Positions 60,159 to 64,000 of a stretch of 64,000 nucleotides of DNA are shown piece by piece. The position numbers and the translations under genes are program-made. Numbering within the stretch: the first letter of the stretch is position 1; each line of letters starts with the position of its first letter. The stretch is from Prosthecobacter sp. (GTDB lineage Bacteria; Verrucomicrobiota; Verrucomicrobiia; Verrucomicrobiales; Verrucomicrobiaceae). The stretch lies in assembly GCA_021733925.1 (NCBI GenBank), contig JAIPJY010000024.1, positions 38,318 to 102,317 on the forward strand, read 5' to 3'. The notes under the pieces are model-generated. The model saw only the letters and a list, made by a program, of their open reading frames with translations, did no database searches and had not been told where the DNA came from.

Positions 60159-61022
60159 ATGAGCGCCACGCCCGCTGTTTCCGTCAACCATCTGACCAAG
60201 GTCTTCAAAGGCCACCTTGGCAAAGGTGCCTTTCGCGCCGTGCATGATGTGTCATTCACGGTGGAAGCCGGAGAGGTCTATGGCCTCATCGGTCCCAATG
60301 GTTCCGGCAAGTCCACCACGATGAAGGCCATCCTGGGCCTGCTCAACCCGACCGAAGGAGACACCCGAATCTTCGGCATCCCGAGCATGGAAGTAGCCAG
60401 CCGCCGCAGCGTGGGCTTCCTGCCTGAGAACCCGTATTTCTACAAGCACCTGAACGGACGCGAGACCCTGCACTTTTATGGCAAGCTGTGCGGCATGAGC
60501 GGTGACCAATTGAAATCCCGTGCGGAGGAAATGCTGGCGCTGACTGGGCTCGAAGATGCGGCAACGCGGCGTGTGGGCGGCTATTCCAAAGGCATGCTGC
60601 AACGGCTCGGCCTGGCGCAGGCCTTGATCCATGAGCCGCAGTTGCTCGTGCTGGATGAACCCACCGCAGGCGTGGACCCTTCCGGCTCGCGCATCATCCG
60701 GGACCTGATCATCGAGTTCCGCTCTCGCGGCATTACGGTGCTGGTGACTTCGCATCTGCTGGAGCAGATGCAGGAGGTGTGTGACCGCGTGGGCATCATG
60801 GCGCACGGGCGCATGGTGCGTGAAGGACGGCTTGATGAACTGATCGCTGTGGAAAATCAAACCGAGTTGGTTTTTGAAAACGCCTCCCCTGACCTGCTGG
60901 CCAAGATTGATGCCTTGGTGAAGGCCGAAGGCGGCGGCACACGTCTGCTGCGCAGCGGCCACCCACGCACGACGCTGGAACGCCTGTTCATTGAAGCCAC
61001 CAACGAACCGAAAAAACCATGA
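60159..61022 (+). CDS. ABC-2 type exporter, ATP-binding subunit
   Basis: 287 residues. VNHLTKVFKGHLG opens the domain; Walker A is GPNGSGKST near residue 47, signature GGYSKGMLQRLGLAQALIH near residue 145, Walker B LLVLDEPTAGVDPSGSR and the switch His in VLVTSHLLEQMQEV. A C-terminal ~75-residue extension (ELVFENASPDLLAKI) follows the ATPase, as in other drug/lipid exporters of the ABC-2 class. Its stop overlaps the permease start by four bases. Confidence 0.95.
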   Translation: MSATPAVSVNHLTKVFKGHLGKGAFRAVHDVSFTVEAGEVYGLIGPNGSGKSTTMKAILGLLNPTEGDTRIFGIPSMEVASRRSVGFLPENPYFYKHLNGRETLHFYGKLCGMSGDQLKSRAEEMLALTGLEDAATRRVGGYSKGMLQRLGLAQALIHEPQLLVLDEPTAGVDPSGSRIIRDLIIEFRSRGITVLVTSHLLEQMQEVCDRVGIMAHGRMVREGRLDELIAVENQTELVFENASPDLLAKIDALVKAEGGGTRLLRSGHPRTTLERLFIEATNEPKKP

Positions 61023-61942
61023 GCCAAGCCTCCTCAAGTTCTGCTCCCGCCTCCGTGGCTCCGGTGCGCTTCTCGCCCCGGCGCGTGTGGACGCTGGCCT
61101 ATGCGACGATGACGCAGCTCATGCGCATGAAAATCCTGCCCTTTCTGCTGCTCTTCTGCGCGCTGGTGGCGGCCATGGGTTTTGGCTTTTCCGTGATCAA
61201 TCCCGAGCAGCAGCTCAGCCAGTTCAAAACCATGTCCCTGGGCGTCCTGCAGGTTTTTAGCCTGGTGTTCGGCATTGTCGCCACCGCCCTGCTGCTGCCA
61301 AAAGACCTGGAGGACCGGACACTTTACACGATCCTGTCCAAGCCTGTGCCGCGTTTTGACTACCTTCTGGGAAAGCTGATCGGCGTGCTGATGCTCATCG
61401 CTTCAGGGCTGATCATCATTGATGCCGTGCTGAGTCTGATCTTATGGCTGCAGCAGTCCATGCTGTTCAACGCTGCCGTATCCCAGTTGCACACAGAAAA
61501 CCAAGATACACCCGAAGCGGTGGCGCAGATACGCGAAATCGTGGCCAGACAGGGGCTCACTTGGAATCTGCACTGGGCAGTGTGGGCCATCTTCCTGAAG
61601 GCCTCCTTGGTGACGACAGTGGCACTGCTGCTCTCCTGCATCGCGAGTTCGACATTGTTCACCATCGTCATCACCTTTTGCATCACCATCATCGGCCATG
61701 GTCATGCGATGATCCGCGAATTCATTTTCCAGCCTAATCTGGGGAGCACTGCCACTCGCATCGGAACTTTCATACTGGCCGCGATCTGCCCGGACCTGGC
61801 GCAATTTGACGTCGTCGACAGCGTGGCCAACGGCGAGATCGTGCCTTGGGCAGCGGTGTATGAAATGACCGGCATCGCTGCTCTCTACATGACGGTTTAC
61901 CTCTTCGTCACTCACCTTGTTTTTGTGGAGAAGGAACTATGA
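61019..61942 (+). CDS. ABC-2 type exporter, permease subunit
   Basis: 307 residues with about six membrane helices: ILPFLLLFCALVAAMGFGFSVI, GVLQVFSLVFGIVATALLLP, LIGVLMLIASGLIIIDAVLS, ASLVTTVALLLSCIASSTLF, IVITFCITIIGHGHAM and the C-terminal IAALYMTVYLFVTHLVF. The cytoplasmic KDLEDRTLYTILSKPVPRFDYLLGK loop after the second helix is the family contact with the ATPase ('K....G...LL.KP'). Partner of the ATPase at 60159. The stop lies seven bases before the left inverted repeat of the inserted GxxExxY cassette. Confidence 0.9.
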   Translation: MSQASSSSAPASVAPVRFSPRRVWTLAYATMTQLMRMKILPFLLLFCALVAAMGFGFSVINPEQQLSQFKTMSLGVLQVFSLVFGIVATALLLPKDLEDRTLYTILSKPVPRFDYLLGKLIGVLMLIASGLIIIDAVLSLILWLQQSMLFNAAVSQLHTENQDTPEAVAQIREIVARQGLTWNLHWAVWAIFLKASLVTTVALLLSCIASSTLFTIVITFCITIIGHGHAMIREFIFQPNLGSTATRIGTFILAAICPDLAQFDVVDSVANGEIVPWAAVYEMTGIAALYMTVYLFVTHLVFVEKEL

Positions 61943-61948
61943 GTGGAT

Positions 61949-61969
61949 GGCCGCAAAAAAGCGCAAAAA
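61949..61969 (+). repeat. Left inverted repeat of the GxxExxY cassette
   Basis: 21 bases opening GGCCGC and ending GCGCAAAAA. It starts seven bases after the permease stop and overlaps one of the possible early starts of the GxxExxY frame (ATG at 61947). Confidence 0.75.
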
Positions 61970-61985
61970 CGAACCAAAAAAACAG

Positions 61986-62393
61986 ATGATGAACCAGATC
62001 AAAAAAGATCCTGTTTTTGAACTGTGTGATGTGGTGAGAGAAGTTGCATTTGCGATTCATCGTTATCATGGGCCGGGGCATCTGGAGAAGATTTATGAAA
62101 ACGCTCTCACAAATCGCCTGCGAAAGCTGGGGCACAAGGTGGAGTCGCAAAAGCCGATGCAGGTCAGAGACGAGGACGGCACACTTCTCGGCGACTTCTT
62201 TGCCGACCTCGTCGTGGATGACTTTCTCATCTTGGAACTCAAAGCCGTAAGGGCCATTGTGAGCGAGCATGTGGCACAGCTCCTCGGTTACATGCGCAGC
62301 TCATCTCAGGAACATGGTCTCCTCCTTAACTTTGGGGCCAGTCGCTTCTTCATCAAAAAGTTCATCCTCTCCGAGTCTCTGGCTGAACTCTGA
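61986..62393 (+). CDS. GxxExxY protein (predicted PD-(D/E)XK nuclease fold)
   Basis: About 136 residues from the paired ATG at 61986/61989; the ATG at 61947 would start inside the left repeat. The family motif is Gly31-x-x-Glu34-x-x-Tyr37 in GHLEKIYENAL. The nuclease-like triad is Asp74 in FFADLVVDD and Glu84-Leu-Lys86 in ILELKAVRA, the D-x9-ExK spacing of PD-(D/E)XK enzymes. The family (PDDEXK_3 type) is often present in several copies per PVC genome and its biology is undefined. The gene lies inside the inverted repeats at 61949-61969 and 62404-62424. Confidence 0.92.
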   Translation: MMNQIKKDPVFELCDVVREVAFAIHRYHGPGHLEKIYENALTNRLRKLGHKVESQKPMQVRDEDGTLLGDFFADLVVDDFLILELKAVRAIVSEHVAQLLGYMRSSSQEHGLLLNFGASRFFIKKFILSESLAEL

Positions 62394-62403
62394 TTTTTTC
62401 ATC

Positions 62404-62424
62404 TTTTTGCGCCTCTTTGCGGCC
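62404..62424 (-). repeat. Right inverted repeat of the GxxExxY cassette
   Basis: TTTTTGCGCCTCTTTGCGGC plus C on the plus strand; its reverse complement matches the left repeat at 19 of 21 positions. It ends 14 bases before the start of the following gene. Confidence 0.75.
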
Positions 62425-62438
62425 AACAATCTCCCCTC

Positions 62439-63233
62439 ATGAAACGAAAACTCCAGGCTGCCGCCGTGCTGCTGATCTTTGGTGTGCTGAAACTGCCGCT
62501 GGAGCAGCGGGTGACGCATGATCTGCGCGCGATGCATCTGGTGGATGAGCCTCTGCATCTGGGGGTAAAAGGAAACATGGGGCAGATGGGCCTCGCGGCA
62601 GCGTTCGGCGGATTGCGCGGGCTGATCGCCACCATTTTCCAACTGCGCGCCCACGTGGAGTTCACGCGGGTGAACTGGGCGCAGGTGGACAAATACTATG
62701 GGTTTGTGACGGAGCTCCAGCCGCGCATTGCCCGCTACTGGGAGGAAGCGTCATGGCAGATGGCCTACAACGCGGCTTCGTACTACCTCTACAACAAGGA
62801 GCTGAAACCGGCGCTGCGTGGAAGCTTGTACCATGACTATGTGAAGCGCGGCACCGACATCCTGGAAGAAGGATTGAAGCTCATGCCCGACAACCCGCGC
62901 CTGTGGCAAAAACTGGGTGAACTGCACTGGGCCCGCAGCAAGGACTTCAAGGCGTCAGGTGATGCCTACTGGAATTCCTTTCAGCACGGCGGCCTGAATT
63001 TCTCCGAGCGCTTCGCTGGCTTTGCCTATGCGCAGTCAAACGACCCGGCCTCATGGGCCAAGGGATATGCCATTTTGAAAAGACTCTATGACGAGAAGAA
63101 GACCACGCCGGGCTTGATCGAATTCCTGAAGATGCTGGAACACAACCTCCACATCCCTGCGGCTCAGCGTATTCCGGATGCAGGCCCGGTCAGATCGACG
63201 CCCGACCCTCAGGCCGGACCCCAACGGCAATAG
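62439..63233 (+). CDS. Conserved PVC protein following an ABC exporter, TPR-like
   Basis: 264 residues. One N-terminal helix (LQAAAVLLIFGVLKLPL) anchors it; the second segment GQMGLAAAFGGLRGLIATIFQ is hydrophobic. Then helical repeats with WAQVDKYYGFVTELQPRIARYW, ASWQMAYNAASYYLYNKEL and EEGLKLMPDNPRLWQKLGELHW, a TPR-like pattern with aromatic pairs. I do not know the function. Its usual place directly after an ABC-2 ATPase/permease pair makes it a candidate subunit or regulator of that exporter; here the GxxExxY cassette separates them. Confidence 0.72.
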   Translation: MKRKLQAAAVLLIFGVLKLPLEQRVTHDLRAMHLVDEPLHLGVKGNMGQMGLAAAFGGLRGLIATIFQLRAHVEFTRVNWAQVDKYYGFVTELQPRIARYWEEASWQMAYNAASYYLYNKELKPALRGSLYHDYVKRGTDILEEGLKLMPDNPRLWQKLGELHWARSKDFKASGDAYWNSFQHGGLNFSERFAGFAYAQSNDPASWAKGYAILKRLYDEKKTTPGLIEFLKMLEHNLHIPAAQRIPDAGPVRSTPDPQAGPQRQ

Positions 63234-63251
63234 GCTGGCAGCCTAGCTTGG

Positions 63252-63283
63252 TTGACATTCGACAATTCCGGGTGAATTTTCAC
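63252..63283 (+). promoter_or_regulatory. Candidate rex promoter with palindromic operator
   Basis: TTGACA (63252-63257) fits a -35 box, and a weak AATTTT at -10 spacing is covered by the palindrome GTGAATTTTCAC (63272-63283), 13 bases before the ATG. The half-sites GTGAA/TTCAC match those of Rex operators (TTGTGAA...TTCACAA), but the spacer is two bases shorter than usual, so autoregulation is only suggested. CATTCGACAATTCCG at 63256-63270 also resembles the repeat at 20279-20320. Confidence 0.4.
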
Positions 63284-63296
63284 ATTGTTCCAACCA

Positions 63297-63914
63297 ATGC
63301 CAGCCAAAAGAGACATTCCCCGCAAGTCGATCTACCGCCTGTCGATCTACCAGCGCTGCCTGCAGCGTCTGCGTGAGAACCAGGTGGACACCGTTTCCTC
63401 TGCCGCCTTGGCAAAGGCTGCTGGGGTGAAATCCACGCAATTGCGCAAAGATCTGGCCTACTTCGGTCAGCTTGGCACCCGGGGTCTGGGATACAATGTG
63501 GACATCCTCAGTGGCACGATCGGGGATGTGCTGGGGCAAAACAAGCTGCAACCCGTCATCCTGGTCGGCGTCGGCAATCTCGGCTCCGCGCTGCTGCGCT
63601 ATGGCGGCTTTCGCAAAGAGGGATTCGAAGTCGCGGCGGCGTTTGATCTCGCACCGCGTAAAATTCCTCAGGTAAACGTGCCTGTGCTGGGAATGACAGA
63701 AATGGCCGAGTTCATCCGCCGTCAGAATGTAAAAATGGCCATCCTCACCGTGCCTGCCAGCAACGCCCAGTCTGTGGTCAATGATCTGGTGCAGCATGGC
63801 ATCCAAGCCATCCTGAACTTCTCACCCACCGTGCTCGATGTGCCGGAGCATGTCGTGGTGAACAGCGTCGATCTGGCCGTGGAGCTGGAGAATCTGAGCT
63901 ACTTCATCCGCTGA
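63297..63914 (+). CDS. rex: Redox-sensing transcriptional repressor Rex
   Basis: About 205 residues from the ATG at 63297 (MPAKRDIPRKSIYRLSIYQ); an in-frame TTG four codons earlier is less likely. The N-terminal winged helix has VSSAALAKAAGVKSTQLRKDLAYFGQ, the canonical Rex recognition block with GTRGLGYNV. The Rossmann NAD(H)-binding domain has VGVGNLGSALLRYGGF, followed by AAAFDLAPRK, VLGMTEMAEFIRRQNVKMAILTVPA and GIQAILNFSPT, and ends with VNSVDLAVELENLSYF. It senses the NADH/NAD+ ratio and represses respiratory or fermentative genes; a possible operator lies just upstream of its own start. Confidence 0.97.
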   Translation: MPAKRDIPRKSIYRLSIYQRCLQRLRENQVDTVSSAALAKAAGVKSTQLRKDLAYFGQLGTRGLGYNVDILSGTIGDVLGQNKLQPVILVGVGNLGSALLRYGGFRKEGFEVAAAFDLAPRKIPQVNVPVLGMTEMAEFIRRQNVKMAILTVPASNAQSVVNDLVQHGIQAILNFSPTVLDVPEHVVVNSVDLAVELENLSYFIR

Positions 63915-63972
63915 TTGCTGGGCTCACTGCCGCTGAGAATGAATTGAAGCAAACGCGCTGCGTCATGCGTTG

Positions 63973-64000
63973 ATGTCGGACTCCCATCCCGACCATCCAC
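63973..64000 (+). CDS. Possible start of a gene cut by the right edge
   Basis: ATG TCG GAC TCC CAT CCC GAC CAT CCA (MSDSHPDHP) runs open to the end of the window, about 58 bases after the rex stop. Too short to assign; it may be a real N-terminus or chance. Confidence 0.25.

Follow-up and report, generated by a model that had tools for sequence, protein, structure and literature searches.

A GxxExxY nuclease gene between inverted word-run arms at an operon junction of Prosthecobacter sp.: a candidate gene-bearing palindromic element

How did a small nuclease gene come to lie between two genes of an operon, and what are the inverted repeats on either side of it? We addressed this question in a 64,000-nt stretch of Prosthecobacter sp. 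DNA (the window; its genome is called G000). Here, the operon order is ABC ATPase, ABC-2 permease, insert and TPR-like gene, the gene of the insert having the sense of the operon (Table 1). The permease stop codon is at 61940-61942, and the ATG of the TPR-like gene is at 62439. A preliminary description had seen in the insert a self-contained, mobile or homing-like cassette comparable to intervening sequences (IVS). Scanning 61000-64000 with Rfam, we obtained zero matches, and the site is a permease/TPR junction, not rRNA. The TPR-like gene product had no Pfam or NCBIfam match at 0.001.

Table 1. Features of the insert and its junction in the window
Feature	Position	Strand	Basis
Left ATGA copy, permease gene end; in empty genomes the same ATGA is permease stop and next start	61939..61942	+	
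Inserted segment, 496 nt, missing from the empty junction	61943..62438	+	Alignment of 30 orthologous junctions
Left arm TGGCCGCAAAAAAGCGCAAAAA, CGCAAAA words	61948..61969	+	Inverted pair with score and null model
GxxExxY PD-(D/E)XK nuclease gene, 135 aa	61986..62393	+	PF13366, TIGR04256, AlphaFold2 model, dN/dS
Right arm, inverted copy, minus-strand reading TGGCCGCAAAGAGGCGCAAAAA	62404..62425	-	Inverted pair with score and null model
Right ATGA copy, start of the downstream TPR-like gene	62439..62442	+	Sequence and junction alignment

The two arms are 22 nt each and complementary at 20 of 22 positions; the 21-base inverted repeats with 19 of 21 matches described earlier are this pair less one base. 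The right 21-mer does end 14 bases ahead of the ATG at 62439, but the left one stands six bases past the permease stop and not seven, as had been stated. A single open frame lies between the arms (61948-61969 and 62404-62425), so that the gene would form the loop if the arms paired as a stem, in agreement with the earlier proposal. The inverted-match score of this pair is 17. None of 2000 Markov-resampled flank pairs reached this value (maximum 15), and it was reached at 4 of 1500 random window positions, all within the locus itself (62007-62081). At the filled junctions described below, the left arm drifts between genomes G000, G022 and G036 and the right arm stays. Thus, once inserted, the arms appear to be free of visible pairing selection.

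Searching the TPR-like protein in 48 genomes of the genus, we found a match in 44, and 30 junctions were fetched and read. Three of the 30 were filled (G000, G022 and G036, with arms and gene in each), one retained the right end only, and 26 were without the element. A tight junction of the form ...GA(A/G)(C/T)T-ATGA... was present in 20 of the 30, in which a single ATGA serves as permease stop and next start (4-bp overlap). The closest sister species is empty, the junction in G009 and others reading GAACT-ATGA-AACG. Six more distant genomes have different short junctions and also miss the element. In G047, where the right end alone remains, a deletion presumably ran from the GAACT of the permease to the GAACT preceding the nuclease stop. 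The idea of a discrete cassette with an empty site in sister species was therefore borne out; far from always carrying the cassette, the orthologous junction is usually empty. As ATGA stands on either side of the insert in G000, both the permease and the TPR-like gene are intact. This ATGA duplication is suggestive of a target duplication, but the pair could be maintained by selection, since stop and start codons are required at the junction.

We built a tree from the permease and the TPR protein of 23 genomes, omitting G010 for its short permease. Filled and empty genomes are interleaved within one 11-genome clade (support 100/99): the filled G000 is sister to the empty G009 (96/92), and the empty G030 comes next (97/97). 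All 12 tree genomes beyond this clade are empty, and at least three state changes are required. Among the filled genomes, nucleotide identity of the nuclease gene was 77.9, 78.9 and 83.7%, compared with 82.1-83.0% for the TPR gene and 84.3-88.3% for the permease. The nuclease dS (1.41, 1.25 and 0.89) was equal to or higher than the TPR dS (0.79, 0.85 and 0.79). Element and flanks having diverged by similar amounts, the insertion at the window site appears old, and a recent arrival in G000 would not fit this divergence. A single insertion with several exact losses and repeated insertions at one site both fit. The homing-like part of the earlier proposal thus found no support as far as recent homing at the window site is concerned, the element being as diverged as its flanks.

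The protein of the insert matched PF13366 (7.6e-30, 104.1 bits; cut-off 22) and TIGR04256 GxxExxY (2.1e-31, 108.7 bits; cut-off 35). In Pfam, PF13366 was its sole match, with no PF05635, and neither Pfam nor NCBIfam gave a match to DDE, HUH, serine or tyrosine transposase families. It has the PD-(D/E)XK core fold with D...ExK, and the AlphaFold2 model of the 135-aa protein has a mean pLDDT of 89.6. The triad Asp74, Glu84 and Lys86 is present as described before (numbering from the ATG at 61986). Across 45 aligned sequences, D74 and K86 do not vary, and conservation of E84 is 90% or higher. An earlier in-frame ATG, at 61947, abuts the left arm; G022 and G036 have no ATG at this position, so a start at 61986 is likelier. 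The dN/dS of the gene at the window site is 0.07-0.08, which suggests that purifying selection has kept the protein working. PADLOC returned a weak match to PDC-M36A (2.8e-4). Searching by sequence, we found no relatives of solved structure at E up to 1, and PHROGs gave no match for the three proteins submitted. With L082 as query, a relative occurred in only 8 of 72,556 plasmid records, too few for comparison. Two further frames were seen in the genus: in G041:C2:460237-460560, a GxxExxY domain lies within an 839-codon open frame, and in G000:C88 (L001, 985-1968), a 276-aa frame with two GxxExxY domains lies inside a perfect 37-nt inverted repeat.

We then asked how general the arms are around GxxExxY genes, counting a local inverted match score of at least 13 within 400 nt per side of the gene. 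Matching arms were present at 60 of 75 genus loci, compared with 2 of 75 when the downstream side was reversed; 75 of 750 foreign pairings passed, some with common words. These loci are a non-random set of 77, of which two were dropped for short flanks: eight from the window genome, 29 best per genome, and 40 that were mostly high-scoring among the matches listed. After adding 20 lower-scoring loci, 62 of 95 were arm-bearing. Both L001 and L002 were scored armless among the 75 loci, although the perfect 37-nt pair surrounds L001/L008 and a hairpin adjoins L002. One subfamily was followed across phyla, with record titles naming Verrucomicrobia, Planctomycetota, Kiritimatiellae, Lentisphaerae, Desulfobacter, Armatimonadetes, Nitrospirae, Acidobacteria and others; arms were found at 70 of the 76 loci assessed (of 80), compared with 3 of 76 reversed. 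That arms accompany any gene was rejected, as none of 23 TPR gene flanks reached the threshold. At 35 of 75 loci the gene has a complete hairpin next to it, on both sides in 13 cases and on one side in the others (1 of 75 in the mirror control).

Each arm repeats a short word, for example ACGGAA, ACGAAA, GCAGAG, CAGGATT, CACTAAT or CGCAAAA, with a period of 9 (autocorrelation, z 23.7, 106 arms) and weaker periods of 10 and 11. For an arm/protein tree, we used 106 loci (score 14, arm length 60, no stop) drawn from the 75 genus loci and 70 of the 80 cross-phylum loci. Arm similarity fell with protein distance (Spearman -0.48), and none of 500 permutations was as low (lowest -0.20). Thus, in these comparisons the arm words follow the protein clades, an association that may arise from linkage alone.

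The D-(E/D)xK triad is retained in 61 of 62 arm-bearing copies, compared with 15 of 33 armless copies, among the 95 loci. Of the 19 copies with a broken triad, 18 are armless, the sole arm-bearing one being L382. All the broken copies begin with DLPH.../LPHL... and seem to form a single lineage, probably a captured relative that has lost its catalytic function. Since the broken triads represent one lineage or event, the Fisher value of 1.4e-9 is not independent evidence; as far as the sequences tell, arms and predicted activity appear to go together. This lineage (L007, at G000:C12:12086-12433, and L372-L389) has E34, E84, K86, Q98 and Y102 replaced, is armless but for the copy named above, and has many members in the genus.

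Checking the strand of the neighbours, for which the longest open frame of at least 130 codons was taken as a proxy, we found both on the gene strand compared with both opposite at a ratio of 51:3 among the 77 genus loci. Among the 80 cross-phylum GxxExxY loci, the corresponding ratio was 45:6. The simplest reading of this sense orientation in operons would be that the genes have no promoter room and live on read-through.

Nucleases of the window type (at least 59% identity) were found at 13 sites, spread over 10 of the 48 genomes. Relatives in G008 (L261), G012 (L258) and G019 (L259) lie between other genes, and their arms repeat the same word or a related one. In the window genome, the arm pattern had 37 matches at up to 3 mismatches, compared with 2 for the reversed pattern, and six gene-less facing pairs were found (C2, C14, C33, C65, C66 and C88). 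Three gene-less hairpins, of the window word class and a second class, fold with much greater stability than shuffled sequences (z -4.3 to -10.1). Across the genus there were 366 matches to the arm pattern, compared with 40 for the control. The median per genome was 16 with a window-type gene (n=10) and 2 without it (n=38; Mann-Whitney p 4.6e-4, computed without kinship correction); the gene is absent from 5 of 10 arm-rich genomes. The concern that the 21-mers might occur everywhere regardless of GxxExxY genes therefore held in part, as they also occur away from such genes, with six strict facing pairs among them. Of the self-contained cassette, the cassette stands, but self-contained does not, because hairpins with the same arms are found in the genome without the gene. 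Such hairpins have the look expected of a non-autonomous relative, and the cassette thus becomes the gene-bearing member of a hairpin family. The window genome also holds seven tandem ACGGAT-word hairpins at G000:C55:10715-11334 (L328-L334), spaced mostly 99 nt apart, and a similar 104-nt array at C85:1688-1912.

Searching the joined flanks of 12 elements in six near relatives, we found clear presence/absence differences for three GxxExxY elements (L002, L003 and L004), one gene-less (L017) and two four-helix elements (L074 and L078). L037 and L038 were conserved in the genomes read, and L001, L013 and L073 were ambiguous. Hairpin L029 persists in G009 and G029, but G030 and G015 have a different hairpin (GAGCTTTAGCTCG...) in its place (L245, L246). 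None of the 12 elements compared in the six relatives gave a clean, base-exact target duplication; away from the window site, the intergenic sequence around the insert differs in empty genomes, so no base-exact exchange is seen.

The likeness to intervening sequences suggested in the preliminary description proved apt, for four-helix IVS-type genes share this layout in the genus and in other phyla. Nine PF05635 (23S IVP) domains are present in the window genome. At genus four-helix loci, inverted arms were found in 34 of 38 (reversed 2 of 38, foreign 49 of 380), with periods of 7, 10 and 14. The family was present in 18 of 20 genomes reached through other phyla, where arms, built mainly of heptamers, were found at 25 of 27 loci with sufficient flank (reversed 3, foreign 11 of 270). 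Both neighbours on the gene strand, compared with both opposite, stood at 34:0 in the 38 genus loci and 15:1 in 30 cross-phylum loci. By class, the arm words have a period of about 9 bp around the nucleases, and of 7 or 10 bp around the four-helix genes. Rfam found no rRNA in 68 four-helix loci, only four tRNAs. Loci L070-L078, L298-L326 and L342-L371 are such 23S-IVP genes outside rRNA, with 7-bp or 10-bp word arms, lying sense in operons. At L078 (1385-2005), the right arm apparently is now N-terminal coding sequence of the downstream gene, with the start codon within the arm.

We consider it somewhat more probable than the contrary that the window cassette represents a REPIN/RAYT-like palindromic mobile element in its gene-bearing form, with a RecB/Cas4-like PD-(D/E)XK nuclease as its cognate enzyme. 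Its ends would be the inverted arms of a short word every ~9-11 bp, and its loop a promoterless GxxExxY gene. Such an element would enter operons at stop/start junctions in sense orientation, leaving the neighbours unharmed, and its nuclease would be expressed by read-through. The nuclease may recognise the words of its own arms, probably as single strand or hairpin, and then cut. By analogy with RAYT/REPIN, this cutting would spread the gene-bearing element and, in trans, the gene-less hairpins; copies may later disappear, in some cases by an exact loss bounded by the flanking ATGA repeats. The proposal draws together what we observe: arms, empty and filled sites, gene-less hairpins, the word/protein association, sense orientation, purifying selection and intact triads. 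Against a mobile element stand a possible target duplication at the window site alone, the drift of the left arm there after insertion, a sense bias atypical of DNA transposons, and the half of the arm-rich genomes (5 of 10) without a window-type gene. Four-helix loci show this layout although no nuclease is known in them, so the enzyme might be a passenger in both classes.

That the cassette instead acts at the RNA level, in the manner of an IVS, we hold to be unlikely, if worth keeping in mind. Its stem would be cut in the transcript, separating the cistrons, and the protein would be accessory in the GxxExxY and four-helix classes alike. RNase III cuts 23S IVS stems (PMC4990558, in the sections consulted), and both the strong sense orientation (51:3, 45:6 and, for four-helix loci, 34:0) and the presence of four-helix genes in the same architecture would suit this reading. 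However, the gene-less hairpins also lie outside such transcripts, the two arms of one locus drift apart, and the need for read-through expression would also account for the sense bias. A homing-type cycle, in which the nuclease cuts the empty junction and repair copies the element in, would give repeated gain and loss at one site, as the interleaved filled and empty states of the well-supported 11-genome clade suggest (G000 being sister to G009 at 96/92); the element dS (1.41, 1.25), if anything above that of the flank (0.79, 0.85), is also what independent, diverged insertions would give. Yet similarity among the filled copies does not exceed that of their flanks, hence no recent spread took place at the window site; a single ancient insertion, exactly lost several times, fits equally, and the same subfamily sits at unrelated sites. 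We regard this cycle as rather improbable.

We give a similarly low rating to a resident regulatory or defence nuclease, whose arms would be autoregulatory or mRNA-stability structures and whose distribution would reflect ordinary gene loss and lateral transfer. The purifying selection (dN/dS 0.07-0.08) and the weak PADLOC match (PDC-M36A, 2.8e-4) are consistent with such a role, but the exact empty site, one subfamily at different loci, gene-less hairpins with the same words, and genes that have a complete hairpin on either side argue against it. As for an inverted repeat arising by chance or as a plain terminator, the null models, the reversed and foreign pairings and the control gene flanks contradict it and no point in its support was found; its probability is negligible.

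The mobile-element reading can be set beside known systems. In REPIN/RAYT, inverted word pairs occur as gene-less intergenic hairpins, with a cognate gene lying between such palindromes or between terminal inverted repeats (PMC3116915; PMC3733652; sections consulted). Like these REPtrons and TIRtrons, the window family has gene-less inverted doublets and a flanked cognate gene, and complete hairpins stand beside GxxExxY genes as REPINs do beside RAYT genes. Unlike them, its enzyme is PD-(D/E)XK and not an HUH tyrosine transposase, its arms are word runs every ~9-11 bp, and its genes are sense-oriented in operons. The 23S IVS, the origin of which is called unclear, is a short cassette with a terminal inverted-repeat stem and a small gene in the loop (PMC4990558, same sections). 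The window insert shares this plan, but its site is a gene junction in an mRNA, and its product is a nuclease and not a PF05635 four-helix protein. With insertion sequences and MITEs, it has in common terminal inverted repeats, gene-less derivatives and a possible 4-bp target duplication; in contrast to them, the window protein has no match to a known transposase, the sense bias of the family is strong, and its arms vary between protein clades within one common layout. Rpn/transposase_31 proteins are multi-copy PD-(D/E)XK nucleases linked to DNA mobility (PMC5350276, in part). The window family is likewise multi-copy PD-(D/E)XK, but of another Pfam family, the window protein matching PF13366 alone. 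To our knowledge, no paired arms of this kind surround Rpn/transposase_31 genes. Beggiatoaceae carry intergenic runs of a 7-bp word, TAACTGA, of unexplained origin (PMC4679880, in part), resembling the 7-bp word runs of the four-helix arms; the consulted sections of that paper describe direct repeats and mention no four-helix genes, and a link to the four-helix class is our proposal. In the literature searched, GxxExxY proteins are mentioned in passing. A search covering mostly papers open without subscription found none linking GxxExxY to arms or describing such an element, and six arm words looked up in published literature gave nothing related.

More tentatively, at a confidence short of even, we propose that bacterial mobile DNA includes an unrecognised super-class of sense operon cassettes with inverted periodic-word arms, that its two enzymes are the GxxExxY nucleases and the 23S-IVS four-helix proteins, and that each sheds gene-less hairpins. 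In this scheme, the 23S IVS and TAACTGA-type heptamers would be particular instances, and the nuclease would represent a novel type of mobilising enzyme, one reading iterated words. If these proposals are true, a family labelled only 'GxxExxY protein' would gain a role as the enzyme of palindromic mobile elements across many phyla, with arm words and cognate enzymes that are directly testable in vitro. The scattered intergenic hairpins and tandem words of these genomes would be explained, and the 23S intervening sequences would gain a large set of non-rRNA relatives.
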